Positions 6,159 through 40,071 of a stretch of 43,991 bases of DNA are shown one piece after another. How positions within the stretch are numbered: position 1 is the first letter of the stretch; each line of letters opens with the position of its first letter. The position numbers were made by a program, and so were the translations under genes. The stretch is from a virus. Under the pieces are notes generated by a model that saw only the letters and a list, made by a program, of their open reading frames with translations, had not been told where the DNA came from and ran no database searches. The DNA is taken from the IMG/VR virus record IMGVR_UViG_3300023196_000043, positions 1-43,991 of that record, one strand, 5' to 3'.

Positions 6159-6204
6159 TAGAAGGGGAGAGTAGCTTAATGCTGCTCTCTCTTTCTACTT
6201 TTTT
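6159..6204 (+). terminator. intrinsic terminator after the capsid gene
   Basis: Bases 6159-6175 pair with 6181-6197 over 17 positions (three are G-U wobbles) around a five-base TTAAT loop, followed by six Ts at 6199-6204. It starts seven bases after the capsid stop codon. It should end most scaffold-capsid transcripts and let only part of them continue into the tail genes. Confidence 0.88.
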
Positions 6205-6222
6205 CTAATAAAGGAAATAAAT

Positions 6223-6582
6223 ATGGCTACAAATATTAAAGTTGCCCAGAACGTAAGCAGTGATGGTGCCATTATTACAGGGTTTAGGTACGTAGACAGC
6301 AACCTTACTGTTGGAGCAAACGGTGGTGGTCCTATTCCTCAGACAACCCGTATTATGGCTATCCATACATATGCTACTCTTGCTGGTGAAATTGTTATTA
6401 CTGGTTCTAATCAAATTACTAACAAGACTGCAAAGGGTACAGCCATCCGCTACAGAGTGGGTGCAACGGATTCAAATGACCAGTACATTGGAGATATGGG
6501 TGTAGGTGTTTTTGGCGTACTTAGTGTTGCCAACTCAGGCACTGGCACCATGACTCCTACGATTACTCTATATGTAGGCTAA
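6223..6582 (+). CDS. hypothetical virion protein, 119 aa
   Basis: Not recognised. The body is Gly/Thr/Ile-rich and looks like a small beta-sandwich, with no signal peptide or membrane segment. It is the first gene beyond the capsid terminator, with AAAGGA seven bases upstream of the ATG. It ends one base before the adaptor gene. A small head-decoration or head-closure role is possible but unproven. Confidence 0.6.
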   Translation: MATNIKVAQNVSSDGAIITGFRYVDSNLTVGANGGGPIPQTTRIMAIHTYATLAGEIVITGSNQITNKTAKGTAIRYRVGATDSNDQYIGDMGVGVFGVLSVANSGTGTMTPTITLYVG

Positions 6583-31365: not shown

Positions 31366-33742
31366 TATAGTAATCCTTAAATTTAGGGCGGTCATCCCGC
31401 TTCTGATTTATTTTCCAGAGATCAGCTACCATTGTGTTTTCTCCATGAAAATCTAGCACACCATCCATGCCCTGATCTGCAAAAACTTTTTCACAGTCTT
31501 GAGCCATAGCTAGCAGTTCACCTGTAGTCCAATATGTTTTTTCTTCAACATTAACTTCAATGTACTTAGGCTTTGGTACTTCGCCACCCTCTACATCACC
31601 TGTTGTTTCTGTTTTTTCTTTATCTGATGGCTCTTCTCTGCAACAGTCGAAGCCCCACAGATGTATATTTCTAAAGCCCATCGTATGAAACACTCCAATA
31701 GACCGCATTGCTGCACAAGTACCGCCAGTAATAAGCGTAGCTCCTTGCGGAATACCAAGGCTATCTTCTACCTTAACTTGCTGATTGACAATCTCTTTGC
31801 CTTGCTCATGCTCCTGCCTAAGTGAGTCAGTATAGGCATGCCAGCCATATATAGAAGCTTTCTTTTCTAGAAGAAACTCAGTAACAGATGGGTCGGTCAT
31901 AGATGCTACAAAAAACTTTGTGCTTGTGTCAAGATTTTCAAACAAAGTTTGTCGAATAATGTTGTGTGTACTTTTACCTGTAATAGGTCTAGGGTCCAGT
32001 ACTACACAGCCCCACGGCTTAATACCATTGGCAAGTAGGTGAGGATAGGCATGTTTAACTGTTAGTACTTTAGCATCAGGATGCTCGTGTAAAAATCTTT
32101 TAAGTGCTTGATAGTCTAGGTATGGCCCTGCTGAAACAACAACTCCTGTTTCTTTGTGGGCAGGGTGCTTTGTAACCCATTGGTTGTCGCCAATAAGCTT
32201 CATGTTAGTTTGAATGTTGTTATTAATATACTCTCGCGGCACAGAGTCACGCGGGTTTACAATAATAGGAACACGCTTGAGAGTATCTGGCACATCTTCT
32301 AGGTTTTCGTTATTAAGAATAACTGCTAGATGCGTATGCCCACCGTCAGCTACTCTGTCACCAGAGGGAAGCACATACTTTCTGACTATACTCCGATCAT
32401 CGAATGTGGTCCAACCGCCTTCAATCTCAGGAGTTTTCTCCATCTTCTTAGTAGCCACGCCATCAAAAATCTTCTTAATGCCCTGCGCTTTTTCATCTGG
32501 TATTTTGTCATCGTCGTCCTTTGTAAAGTAATGATCCATAACAACTACTGGAACATCTTTTAAATGCTGATACTCAATCTCTACTGTTTCTTTGCTATTG
32601 CCGCTACCAATCAAAGCAAAGTTAATTTTTTCTTTATTAGTTGATGTAGTTTTAAAGTACATAGATAGGGTATCTCGCACATTCCCTTTAACTAAATCAA
32701 ATGAAAAGTCTTTGCCCTTGTTCTTCTGCATATGCTCTCTAAACTCATTGAGCCTATTCTCAACTGCCAACATTTTATTATGTGGCTTGGCATTGAACTC
32801 TACCTCATCTGTCTCAGACGTAGCATCTTCAAACAAATCAAAGCCAACATAATGCACAGTATCTGTATTGTCAAACGCTGCAAGAGCCATTTCAATAGCA
32901 CGGCCAGCGTTCCAAGTTCCTGTTTCAAGAATAGTAGAAGGCTTATAGAACCTAATTAGGTCTGCAAGTTGGCGATACCTGTTGGGAAGAATATCTGGAG
33001 ATGTTTCAGTATCAGATAGCTGAAGTATTCTGTTACCATCTTTGTCTCTAAGAGCAGCACTTTTTTTATCTCTAAGACAAGCAAACAAAGCATTGATGTA
33101 AGACTTTTCATTAGAAAGTTCTTCGTATCGCATACCATGTGCAACATAAATAGTACGCAGTCTATTAAGAATAAATGTATCGTGCCACTCTCTGTAGTTT
33201 AGAAACTCACCTGAGATAAACGCGCCTCTAAAATCTCCTAACAAGTCTACTGATGTCTGCCTAGATAAATTAAAGGCCATTAGATATTCTGTATTTCTAA
33301 GACAAAGCATATCAACCTTGTCTTCTTCGTCTGGGAACAGCTTGTCTAGTTCCTTGGCAGTAATTTTTTTCTTAGCTATAACATCAGGATCAATCCAAAC
33401 CATCCATGCGTCTGCATTATTAAACGCACACTCAGTCAGGGCAAGAACGCGAGGCAAGAACTTATGTGGGTTTAGGATATCCTGATAAGGAATCTGTCCA
33501 CCTTCAGTGCCATCATGTTCCTTATACTCTTCTAAGAATTTTGAATAATCTTCTAGAGTTTCTAGGTTATGATAGAAAATGTTTGGTGCTTGTGGCAGGG
33601 AGTACTTACTAATATCTATCTGATAATAATAGCAATGAAATTCAAAGCTTGGTTCCCAAATTTCTTTAAATTGATTTAATACTGTATTGGCTGTTTGATT
33701 TAAAATGTCTTCATTAAAACAAGTTACAATTTTATATTTCAT
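31358..33742 (-). CDS. three-domain protein: glycosyltransferase, methyltransferase-like, DUF115/MptE-like
   Basis: 794 aa if started at 33742, where ATG overlaps the stop of the GT8-like gene by 11 bases (upstream ATGs at 33754 and 33805 are less likely). Residues 1-230 are GT-A-like with a WIDPD acidic motif at 117-121. Residues about 255-430 are a Rossmann methyltransferase-like domain (ILETGTWNAG at 271-280). Residues about 530-740 resemble DUF115/MptE-like domains (VVVSAGPYLD, LTVKHAYPHLLANGIKPWG, then GGTCAAMRSIGVFHTMGFRN and LWGFDC) found in Maf-type flagellin glycosylation proteins. Likely builds or modifies a surface glycan; target unknown. Confidence 0.75.
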   Translation of the reverse strand: MKYKIVTCFNEDILNQTANTVLNQFKEIWEPSFEFHCYYYQIDISKYSLPQAPNIFYHNLETLEDYSKFLEEYKEHDGTEGGQIPYQDILNPHKFLPRVLALTECAFNNADAWMVWIDPDVIAKKKITAKELDKLFPDEEDKVDMLCLRNTEYLMAFNLSRQTSVDLLGDFRGAFISGEFLNYREWHDTFILNRLRTIYVAHGMRYEELSNEKSYINALFACLRDKKSAALRDKDGNRILQLSDTETSPDILPNRYRQLADLIRFYKPSTILETGTWNAGRAIEMALAAFDNTDTVHYVGFDLFEDATSETDEVEFNAKPHNKMLAVENRLNEFREHMQKNKGKDFSFDLVKGNVRDTLSMYFKTTSTNKEKINFALIGSGNSKETVEIEYQHLKDVPVVVMDHYFTKDDDDKIPDEKAQGIKKIFDGVATKKMEKTPEIEGGWTTFDDRSIVRKYVLPSGDRVADGGHTHLAVILNNENLEDVPDTLKRVPIIVNPRDSVPREYINNNIQTNMKLIGDNQWVTKHPAHKETGVVVSAGPYLDYQALKRFLHEHPDAKVLTVKHAYPHLLANGIKPWGCVVLDPRPITGKSTHNIIRQTLFENLDTSTKFFVASMTDPSVTEFLLEKKASIYGWHAYTDSLRQEHEQGKEIVNQQVKVEDSLGIPQGATLITGGTCAAMRSIGVFHTMGFRNIHLWGFDCCREEPSDKEKTETTGDVEGGEVPKPKYIEVNVEEKTYWTTGELLAMAQDCEKVFADQGMDGVLDFHGENTMVADLWKINQKRDDRPKFKDYYNG

Positions 33743-34511
33743 TAGTAAGTCCATGTAAGAGTAAGTAAGAGTAATCCATATTCCACTCGGCAGCGTACTG
33801 ACCATCTATGGATCGACGGCATTGCCAATCCTTAAACCAAGGACCACCAGTAGTAAAGTGTACGTTACGTGCCTCAAGGTCTTCAGGAGAGTGGTTGTCT
33901 AGCCAATTCCAATCCTCAGTAATCTTACCAATATCTGAAGCCTTGTCTGATAACCAGCCAAACTTATGTAGCCATGAGCCTGAGTTAGAATTAATTTCGT
34001 TTACTGTTAGCTTCTGATGTGCAGGATGTCCACAGTTCCATAACACAAAGCTCGACCAGTTTTTTCTAAAGTAATTTTCTTGTAGCTTACCATCCATCTT
34101 ATGTGTATCTTTAGGCGCGTAGTCATGCTGCACACAGAACAAAGGATAGAAGTCTGAATAATCTTGTGTTGTATAGTCCTCGAACAGTTCGATAATATCT
34201 GTTCTCATATACATATCACTGTCCATATACAAAGCCCATCCTTCATACATGTTAAGTGCTGGAACTAAGAACCGAGTGAAGCTAAAGTCTGTAGAGAATG
34301 GTCGCCCATCCTTGCTGTCAATAAACTGATCGTCTACAATATCAAACTGCCTATAGTATAGACCCATGCGTTCCATTGTAGGTCTCTTGATAGGTAAGAT
34401 TCTAATAGGCTCTGATGCTGTTCGCTCTATAGAAAACTTACATACATCATAAGCTGTCTGTTCGCGTGGATCGTATCCTATGTATACAGTAAATGGTAAT
34501 TTTTTAGCCAT
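33732..34511 (-). CDS. GT8-like glycosyltransferase
   Basis: A 259-aa GT-A-fold transferase: the opening strand VYIGYDPRE, FTRFLVPALNMYEGWALYMD near 78-97 with the metal-binding D97-S-D99, and the late motif VHFTTGGPWF near 216-225, which corresponds to the H-x-x-G-x-x-K/P-W region of glycogenin/GT8 enzymes. It transfers a sugar from a nucleotide sugar to an unknown acceptor. Its Shine-Dalgarno candidate AAAGGAT (34552-34558) is separated from the start by a hairpin. Confidence 0.8.
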   Translation of the reverse strand: MAKKLPFTVYIGYDPREQTAYDVCKFSIERTASEPIRILPIKRPTMERMGLYYRQFDIVDDQFIDSKDGRPFSTDFSFTRFLVPALNMYEGWALYMDSDMYMRTDIIELFEDYTTQDYSDFYPLFCVQHDYAPKDTHKMDGKLQENYFRKNWSSFVLWNCGHPAHQKLTVNEINSNSGSWLHKFGWLSDKASDIGKITEDWNWLDNHSPEDLEARNVHFTTGGPWFKDWQCRRSIDGQYAAEWNMDYSYLLLHGLTNEI

Positions 34512-34519
34512 ATAAATAG

Positions 34520-34551
34520 TTGTAGAGAGGAAGCTACAACCCCCTCTCTAC
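34520..34551 (-). promoter_or_regulatory. alternative hairpins between SD and start of the GT8-like gene
   Basis: Bases 34522-34530 pair perfectly with 34543-34551 (nine pairs, 12-base loop). A competing stem pairs 34520-34525 with 34534-34539 (six pairs, eight-base loop). They share bases, so only one forms at a time. The long stem would place AAAGGAT at 34552-34558 ten to eleven bases from the ATG; without it the distance is about 40. No U-run follows, so a terminator role is unlikely. Confidence 0.55.
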
Positions 34552-34560
34552 ATCCTTTCC

Positions 34561-37070: not shown

Positions 37071-37362
37071 TTTCTTGATCTCCTGTGTCTATAACTTTTA
37101 AAGCAAAGCTTCGTACCTTGCGTGGCTCAAGTCCTGCATAGGTACAGACAGTATCAAAGTCGTCGGCTGTAACACCAATAGAAGCAAAGAACCAAGCCCG
37201 TGCTTGATCCCTTTCCAAGGTAATACTGCTTGCCTCTTCTTCTCGTTCAACCTTGAGCAAGTCTAGCAACGCCTGTAAGATAACAGATATATATAAAACT
37301 TTGTGTGGGTTCTTATTTACTTGATCGTATAAAGATTCAATAAGCTCTTCATTCATCTTCAT
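37039..37362 (-). CDS. hypothetical conserved protein, 107 aa
   Basis: Mostly helical. The C-terminal segment ARAWFFASIGVTADDFDTVC followed by TYAGLEPRKVR (residues about 54-84) recurs in marine phage proteins and looks like a small helix-turn-helix-type fold. Function unknown. It overlaps the GIY-YIG gene by 14 bases and the DUF3310 gene by 32, so all three are translated together. Confidence 0.6.
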   Translation of the reverse strand: MKMNEELIESLYDQVNKNPHKVLYISVILQALLDLLKVEREEEASSITLERDQARAWFFASIGVTADDFDTVCTYAGLEPRKVRSFALKVIDTGDQENVRRRISLLL

Positions 37363-37747
37363 TAAAGTCCTGTACTGGTCTGTAGAACTTACCGCCTATC
37401 CAGTTGTTATAGTAGGCTGGCTCGTCCGTTCCTTCTAGTTTTGCAGTAAGGACATGTCGTATAACTTGGTGGTAACACTCATAATACTTTAAGCTTCGTT
37501 TGTTTTTAAACTGTCCTAAGATTTTAAATTTAAAAGTATCCTTACCAAACTTATCTATGTCTTCTTTAAGATGTTTGCTAGAACCAGCATAGACTTTCCA
37601 GTTAGATTCTTTTTTCTTTTTACCTTTACGATAAGTCCAGTACTGCTTGCACCCTATGTAAGCCTTCTTAGTTTTTGTGTTGGTGATGCAGTATACAAAA
37701 CCAAAATACTTTTGTATGTCTAGCTTCCTATCGTAGTCCCAGTGCAT
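37349..37747 (-). CDS. GIY-YIG nuclease
   Basis: A 132-aa protein made mostly of the GIY-YIG domain: FGFVYCITN at 16-24 is the GIY position, KKAYIGCKQYW at 28-38 is the YIG position (degenerate first motif FVY). The WKVYAGSSKHLKEDIDKFGK segment lies near 50-69, followed by FKFKILGQF, and a Glu is provided near 90. It starts directly after the exonuclease stop (TAAATG). It could be a homing-type endonuclease without an intron or a DNA-processing enzyme; no gene is split here. Confidence 0.82.
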   Translation of the reverse strand: MHWDYDRKLDIQKYFGFVYCITNTKTKKAYIGCKQYWTYRKGKKKKESNWKVYAGSSKHLKEDIDKFGKDTFKFKILGQFKNKRSLKYYECYHQVIRHVLTAKLEGTDEPAYYNNWIGGKFYRPVQDFNEDE

Positions 37748-38611
37748 TTAGTAATGGACTTCCTCTACGTCTGGCGTCTTTGCCACCTTAACCAGATGTC
37801 TTTTGCCCGACGCATATTTAAATGTACGTAAGCCTCTGCCCTCATTTGCATCACTCCAACACTCTCTATTATGGCGACAATACACACAACCAATATGAAG
37901 ACGCATGTTACCAGACTTACCATCAGGAACAGCAGGATAGCACCTATCAGGGATTGCGGCTTCCTTCGCAACCATTTGCTTGAGTTTCTTAATTCTTTCT
38001 TTGGCATTTATCATCTCCATTGAGTGTACTCTAGACAAACAAATCTCTCCTGTTGATTTATCTATCACAAGAAAGCCAGCCTCATCTAGTCCATTGGCCT
38101 GTGCATACGCAGAGATTTGTGCAATGTAACCAAAGGGATCATCGTTTACTAAATCGTTACGCCTAAACTTATCAAAGCTTCTACCTGATGCACTCTTACA
38201 ATCAATAAGCACACCATCAATCAGTGAATCCTGATGGCCCTTAACACCTTCAATAGTAAGTTCTTTCTGCTGATCTGTAACCTTGTGTCCAGATATAGAC
38301 GCACACAACAGCAGCAGTTCCTCTAAAATATATCCATACAAAAACTTAATTCGTGTGCTAGGTTTCAAGTAATCTTCAGTTGTTTCCACTCTTGAATCAT
38401 ACCATAGCTGTCTATCGGGTTTGCCAATAGCTGAGAGGCGTAGTGCTGTGCGATCTTTAGGAGACTCATACATAAATGTTTTTATATGTACTTTTAGCAT
38501 CTCACCAAAGGTATCAATGTGCTTGTCTACTTCTGCCTCATCCATATCAATAGGATCAAAGGTAAATAAATTATAAATATCCTCGACTAATGTATCTATT
38601 GTTTTTGTCAT
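37748..38611 (-). CDS. RecB/Cas4-like PD-(D/E)XK exonuclease with probable Fe-S cluster
   Basis: A 287-aa nuclease, probably the 5'-end resecting enzyme for host DNA breakdown or recombination in place of T7 gp6. Catalytic pattern: H126 and D128 in VKGHQDSLID, D137-C-K139 in LIDCKSAS, and Q165 in QISAYA. Four cysteines (C224, C242, C245, C251; the last three in GCVYCRHNRECW) match the iron-sulfur site of Cas4/AddB-type nucleases. Its only clear Shine-Dalgarno sequence is upstream of a hairpin that ends seven bases before the ATG. Confidence 0.82.
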   Translation of the reverse strand: MTKTIDTLVEDIYNLFTFDPIDMDEAEVDKHIDTFGEMLKVHIKTFMYESPKDRTALRLSAIGKPDRQLWYDSRVETTEDYLKPSTRIKFLYGYILEELLLLCASISGHKVTDQQKELTIEGVKGHQDSLIDGVLIDCKSASGRSFDKFRRNDLVNDDPFGYIAQISAYAQANGLDEAGFLVIDKSTGEICLSRVHSMEMINAKERIKKLKQMVAKEAAIPDRCYPAVPDGKSGNMRLHIGCVYCRHNRECWSDANEGRGLRTFKYASGKRHLVKVAKTPDVEEVHY

Positions 38612-38650
38612 AAAAATTAGAGGGGTATCTAAATTAATAGATACCCCTCT
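38612..38650 (-). terminator. 12-bp hairpin after ssb; terminator-like and SD-bridging
   Basis: Bases 38619-38630 pair perfectly with 38639-38650 around an eight-base loop. In the - direction the stem is followed by AA and five Ts (38616-38612), then directly by the exonuclease ATG. It looks like a Rho-independent terminator for ssb. It also lies between AAAGGAG (38652-38658) and the ATG, so that the folded stem leaves only eight bases between them. Confidence 0.75.
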
Positions 38651-38662
38651 TCTCCTTTCAAA

Positions 38663-39169
38663 CTACGAAGCGAGGGGGAAGTCTACCGCTTCTTCATTCG
38701 TGTATCCATCAGGGACCACATCAAAGTCAGGACCGTTGCTTGTATACTCAACAAGTTCACGAACCTGTAGGGAGTCAAGATATCCTTTGACGCCTTCCTT
38801 ACCACCAAAGGTCCATGCTTTAGGATATGCTTTAGCACATACCTTAGAACCATTGCCAATTAGTGTATTAGCAGGGAAAGGATTACGTTGTGCATCCACT
38901 ACTCGAATACTTCTGGGATCACCGTTATAGGTTGTAGTGAATTGCTTGAGTGTAACAAAGTTACCACGCTTATCATCTGGCTTTTCTGCTGATACATTCT
39001 TAACAGTCAGCCCGACATCCTGTGCAATCTTTAAATTATCAGGATCAAGATTACAAATATCAATAGTGTACTCAGGCTTCTCTGGGTTGATCGTGTTAGG
39101 CTCAAACACCTTTGCCCAGTAAGCTTCACCAGTGATAAAGATAGGGTCTGCGTAATTTTCGTTAGCCAT
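38663..39169 (-). CDS. single-stranded DNA-binding protein, T7 gp2.5-like
   Basis: Coats single-stranded DNA at the replication fork. A 168-aa protein with an OB-fold pattern (TGEAYWAKVFEPNTINPEKP near 14-33, then VTLKQFTTTYNGDPRSIRVV and GSKVCAKAYPKAWTFGGKEG) and a short acidic tail (NEEAVDFPLAS) of the kind gp2.5 uses to contact polymerase and helicase. AAGGAG precedes the ATG, and a near-consensus promoter is upstream. Confidence 0.82.
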   Translation of the reverse strand: MANENYADPIFITGEAYWAKVFEPNTINPEKPEYTIDICNLDPDNLKIAQDVGLTVKNVSAEKPDDKRGNFVTLKQFTTTYNGDPRSIRVVDAQRNPFPANTLIGNGSKVCAKAYPKAWTFGGKEGVKGYLDSLQVRELVEYTSNGPDFDVVPDGYTNEEAVDFPLAS

Positions 39170-39230: not shown

Positions 39231-39259
39231 ATTATAACATGTGGTATCTTATAAGTCAA
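39231..39259 (-). promoter_or_regulatory. sigma70-type promoter for ssb
   Basis: On the - strand TTGACT (39259-39254) and a perfect TATAAT (39236-39231) are 17 bases apart. The -35 overlaps the stop of the upstream nuclease gene. The distance to the ssb ATG is about 60 bases. It is the strongest promoter match in the window. Confidence 0.75.
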
Positions 39260-40020: not shown

Positions 40021-40071
40021 CTAATAAGTAACTACTGCTTACGTAGTAAGCTAAGTAGTAGTTACTATTAG
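40021..40071. other. 51-base near-perfect palindrome at the polymerase end
   Basis: Arms: 40021-40025 with 40067-40071, 40027-40036 with 40057-40066, 40037-40042 with 40046-40051 (loop 40043-40045), with one bulged base at 40026 and a five-base bulge at 40052-40056. It covers the polymerase stop codon and abuts the -35 box of the HTH promoter. No T-run is present. It could be an operator, an RNA-processing site or a factor-dependent terminator. Confidence 0.75.

Follow-up and report, generated by a model that had tools for sequence, protein, structure and literature searches.

A hairpin held between a Shine-Dalgarno sequence and the exonuclease start codon suggests a split ribosome-binding site in uncultivated marine phages

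Translation of a Cas4-domain exonuclease gene in a group of uncultivated marine phages probably starts at a split ribosome-binding site, in which a folded hairpin lies between the Shine-Dalgarno (SD) sequence and the ATG and is accommodated by the ribosome as in T4 genes 38 and 25 (we put the probability of this reading at about 0.82, on comparative sequence evidence). An earlier note, made from one genome, had proposed that the hairpin draws a distant SD close enough to the ATG to function, in the manner of T4 gene 38, and the comparative evidence for this is strong. The window, by which we mean the whole stretch of DNA analyzed, is the 43,991-nt IMG/VR virus record IMGVR_UViG_3300023196_000043.

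The exonuclease junction in the window

The exonuclease gene follows ssb, and the junction between them consists of the following parts, all on the minus strand:

38663..39169 (-), ssb, Gp2.5-like ssDNA-binding protein gene, upstream of the exonuclease gene (phrog_112, E 5e-14)
38665-38663 (-), ssb stop codon TAG (sequence)
38652..38658 (-), Shine-Dalgarno AAAGGAG (sequence; an SD-like word stands at the same place in relatives)
38619..38650 (-), candidate bridging hairpin, 13-bp perfect stem with 6-nt loop (sequence, fold, covariation)
38650-38638 (-), hairpin 5' arm AGAGGGGTATCTA (sequence), preceded by a single A at 38651
38637-38632 (-), hairpin loop TTAATT (sequence)
38631-38619 (-), hairpin 3' arm TAGATACCCCTCT (sequence)
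38612..38618 (-), spacer AATTTTT from stem to start codon (sequence; distance held in relatives)
37748..38611 (-), Cas4-domain exonuclease gene, start ATG at 38611-38609 (phrog_1990, E 2e-43)

AAAGGAG, the perfect hairpin, AATTTTT and the ATG all stand where the earlier note had placed them, although the stem is 13 bp long, one pair more than the 12 it gave. The SD is indeed too far from the ATG to act linearly, with 40 bases between them (41 had been claimed), and excising the hairpin leaves the predicted eight, which is inside the T4 working range of 5-11 nt. There is no SD in the spacer between hairpin and ATG. The junction RNA folds at -28.9 kcal/mol (z = -4.0), with none of 200 dinucleotide shuffles equally stable, and by our own stem score only four intergenic stems in the window are as strong as this one. 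A search of the window against Rfam matched no known RNA family, and the hairpin holds no ATG, GTG or TTG that could open a leader ORF. The choice of ATG 38611 as the start codon is supported by purifying selection on the N-terminus (pN/pS of 0.28 for codons 2-22, as compared with 0.21 for codons 23-80) and by the form MKxIxTLVEDIY, which is common to many relatives.

Three other features were noted in the surrounding region: a gene for a SegE-like GIY-YIG endonuclease (37349-37747, minus strand), next downstream from the exonuclease gene, a sigma-70-like promoter match upstream of ssb (39231-39259, minus strand; 11 of 12 positions, with TG before the second hexamer), and, just past the downstream end of the DNA polymerase gene, a long near-perfect palindrome (40027-40066).

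At the split site that we propose, the 30S subunit would pair with AAAGGAG just past the ssb stop while the intervening hairpin stays folded and looped out, leaving the exonuclease ATG at an effective spacing of about 8 nt from which it could enter the P site. In the window's folding model, the core pairs have a probability of 1.0, 2.1 kcal/mol suffices to release the SD, and 26 kcal/mol is needed to melt the whole SD-to-start region. As pairing of AAGGAG with the anti-SD yields about -6.5 kcal/mol, binding of the SD would be affordable for a ribosome that leaves the hairpin folded, but hardly for one that has to melt it. We infer that ribosomes initiate across the folded hairpin, and melting the stem would be expected to lower exonuclease synthesis.

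Conservation in related phages

Five protein scans of IMG/VR, together with records of the phage collection, gave 377 loci with 181 distinct upstream regions, 140 of which have ssb directly upstream; no relatives turned up in one scan of bacterial and archaeal genomes. In 138 of the 140 distinct junctions, a count of related sequences and not of independent events, the ssb stop and the exonuclease ATG are separated by a hairpin, and in none of the 138 is there an SD between hairpin and ATG. Under a loose criterion, the stem is preceded by an SD word 4 nt or longer in 133 of 135 hairpin junctions, the exceptions being L143 and L147. Under a strict one (within 15 nt of the stem, stop codon not used), 122 of 138 have an SD-like word. 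A 4-nt word is weak evidence alone, with shuffled flanks yielding one 43% of the time, whereas words of at least 5 nt occur in 69 of the 122 flanks as compared with 12.5% in shuffles. The commonest word is AAGGAG (61 of the 122), and the SD is weak in the GTGAGG clade.

Because early stem boundaries taken from minimum free energy folds had fused the stem with weak pairs between SD and spacer, we used a core-stem definition instead. Stem and ATG lie 6-12 nt apart (sd 1.7) across the 122 strictly scored junctions, and the SD-to-stem distance ranges from -2 to 5 nt, L193 being excluded from both ranges. In that set without L193, the hairpin spans 24 to 71 nt and the ssb stop lies 5 to 50 nt from the stem, while the linear SD-ATG distance across all 122 is 34 to 105 nt. 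At the upper extreme is L193, in which 105 nt separate AAGGAG from the ATG and an insertion has produced an 80-nt loop closed by an intact stem; this insertion falls within 120 nt before the exonuclease ATG and may be an assembly artefact. Neither the sequence nor the length of the loop is conserved across relatives, and the stems include 79 distinct 5' arms. By these comparisons, the conserved feature of the exonuclease junction is its geometry, while hairpin sequence and span vary. With the hairpin excised, spacing in the relatives, counted from the SD register, is 3-16 nt with a median of 11, some of it above the T4 range; in one large clade it reaches 12-16 nt, beyond the E. coli optimum.

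The aligned stems covary strongly. In an alignment of 29 sequences, the window's among them, standard pairs fill 98.9% of pair cells, as compared with 48-65% in slid controls, and double changes occur in 10 of the 13 stem pairs. Covariation in relatives, which the earlier note had put forward as a check, bears the stem out: double-change cells number 63, whereas shuffles give 21.7 and slid controls 3-19. The picture is the same in the ACTT and GTGAGG clades.

In both exceptions among the 140 junctions, L046 and L086 (phage CRP-13), the bridging hairpin has been lost and a direct SD is present. L046, which is nested inside the hairpin-bearing tree, has its stem far upstream and reads GAGGAAGACCG-ATG; CRP-13 has a hairpin upstream and reads AGGAGGAAACA-ATG. 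Phage CRP-9 likewise has its hairpin upstream and uses a direct SD, AAGGATATACA-ATG. Junctions whose hairpin sits away from the ATG have a direct SD, and we found at the exonuclease junction no relative of the kind the earlier note had named as refuting, with the stem lost and no SD close by. Among the other cultured relatives, SIO1, P12053L, ICBM1 and ICBM3 are cases in which the exonuclease start follows a direct AAGGA and ssb was not detected directly upstream, while in HTVC115P the exonuclease gene overlaps pol.

The window contains a second instance of the same arrangement, after the Hsp20 gene:

34509..34558 (-), second SD-hairpin-ATG arrangement in the window: AAAGGA, stem 34552-34521, ACTATTTAT, ATG 34511
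33732-34511 (-), glycosyltransferase-like gene, downstream of the Hsp20 gene (phrog_28018)

Some phage homologues of this phrog_28018-type gene are annotated as glycosyltransferases. The arrangement is kept in 19 close relatives and has no U-tract. Its stem shows limited variation, including, in the relative L390, a U-A pair turned into C-G by way of U-G. The bridging stem is absent from more distant loci: in L401-L407 the start closely follows a direct SD (GAGG, AGGAG or GGAG), and in L409-L412, where the context is unrelated, identity is 43-48% and the start is uncertain, no clear direct SD is seen. Scanning nine related phage contigs revealed no bridged junction beyond those of the exonuclease and post-Hsp20 genes, at a stem threshold that missed some exonuclease hairpins and so possibly weaker cases as well.

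Termination, coupling and other readings

The window hairpin with its AATTTTT is also listed as terminator-like, and the GC-rich stem and U-tract in the window and many relatives resemble an intrinsic (Rho-independent) terminator. They differ from one in that about a third of the junctions have no U-tract, and in that an SD and an ATG stand at held distances on either side. The earlier note had suggested that the hairpin both terminates transcription after ssb and licenses translation of read-through RNA. The U-tract on which this rests is present in the window, and a T-run of at least 4 occurs in 93 of 137 junctions; since the other 44 have no T-run above 3, termination is not the conserved function. 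A terminator role is possible in the subset of junctions with a U-tract. That one hairpin serves twice, ending some transcripts after ssb and bridging the exonuclease start on those that read through, thereby setting the ratio of ssb to exonuclease, is a tentative idea that we consider rather doubtful overall; under it, lineages lacking the U-tract would keep the bridging job alone. Elsewhere in the window, a strong stem followed by a T-run lies just after the major head protein gene (6159-6207, plus strand), and a direct AAGGA precedes the next gene, at 6223. This arrangement is an ordinary terminator-like one.

Translational coupling, in which ribosomes that have finished ssb start anew at the exonuclease ATG, over a stop-to-start path made shorter by the hairpin, is unlikely as the main explanation. 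The ssb stop is upstream of the SD in all junctions, and in the GTGAGG clade the stop and the weak SD almost overlap, as coupling would have it. The stop-to-stem distance varies widely, however, while the SD-to-stem and stem-to-ATG distances are narrow, and it is therefore the position of the SD that is held rather than that of the stop. A mixed mechanism of coupling plus bridge may operate, and coupling to ssb may help in the GTGAGG clade with its weak SD.

It is more improbable still that the hairpin is mainly an intrinsic terminator for ssb, with the exonuclease starting at an AU-rich unstructured site that has no need of the distant SD. Besides the terminator-like sequence and the frequency of T-runs, this can draw on the window's other genes: a direct SD is absent at 16 of 39 gene starts, many of which overlap or abut an upstream stop, and SD-independent starts therefore occur in this phage. 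A terminator, however, needs neither an SD at its 5' foot nor an ATG 6-12 nt after it, and the junctions without a T-run above 3 still keep the stem, the SD and the stem-ATG distance. The appearance of a direct SD wherever the hairpin sits away from the ATG also speaks against it.

We give a slightly lower chance to a repressive switch, in which exonuclease output is controlled by masking of the SD, either by the hairpin or by a protein bound to it, such as the phage SSB. Folding models do allow weak pairing between the SD and the U-rich spacer, and autoregulated replication genes exist in T4 (PMC3014915). Yet the roughly 2 kcal/mol needed to free the SD is below the gain from its pairing with the anti-SD, and the unconserved loop argues against a specific protein site. 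Readthrough of the ssb stop into an SSB-exonuclease fusion is suggested by the window alone, where the stop and the exonuclease ATG share a frame with no stop between them, and as a conserved mechanism we reject it, with the relative frame being random (55, 42 and 41) over 138 ssb-adjacent junctions.

Comparison with T4 and significance

The split site preferred here has its closest counterparts in T4, where mutations destabilizing the intervening structure reduce initiation at genes 38 and 25 (PMC3014915). The structure at gene 38 cuts the spacing from 22 to 5 nt (PMC3014915), and its sequence, TAAGGAGAGGGGCTTCGGCCCTTCTAAATATG, has the same order of parts as the marine junctions: an upstream stop, AAGGAG, one base, a GC-rich hairpin, a short AT-rich spacer and the ATG. 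In contrast to the small T4 hairpin with its UUCG loop, those of the marine phages span 24-71 nt and up to about 100, are often followed by a U-tract, and are conserved over a broad phage group. Gene 25 is alike in that a structure between SD and AUG shortens the spacing, there from 27 to 11 nt (Nivinskas 1999; Malys and Nivinskas 2009, cited in PMC3014915). According to PMC3014915, that structure is kept in close T-even phages and missing in distant ones, and the site was tested in T4 by reporter assays and DMS probing; the marine case concerns other genes in another phage group and is known from sequence comparison. Our literature search, which covered few subscription papers, found nothing on split ribosome-binding sites in this phage group, only the T4 cases.

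While the mechanism is already known, the phage group, the depth of conservation, the size of the hairpins and the presence of two cases in one genome appear to be new. To our knowledge, split ribosome-binding sites have been described for only two genes, both of T4. For annotation, a stem with a U-tract ahead of a gene can be more than a terminator; gene finders that seek a linear SD may misjudge bridged starts. With hairpin sequence, length and loop free to vary at constrained distances from SD and ATG, these more than 100 natural junctions can show what the initiating ribosome tolerates between SD and AUG.
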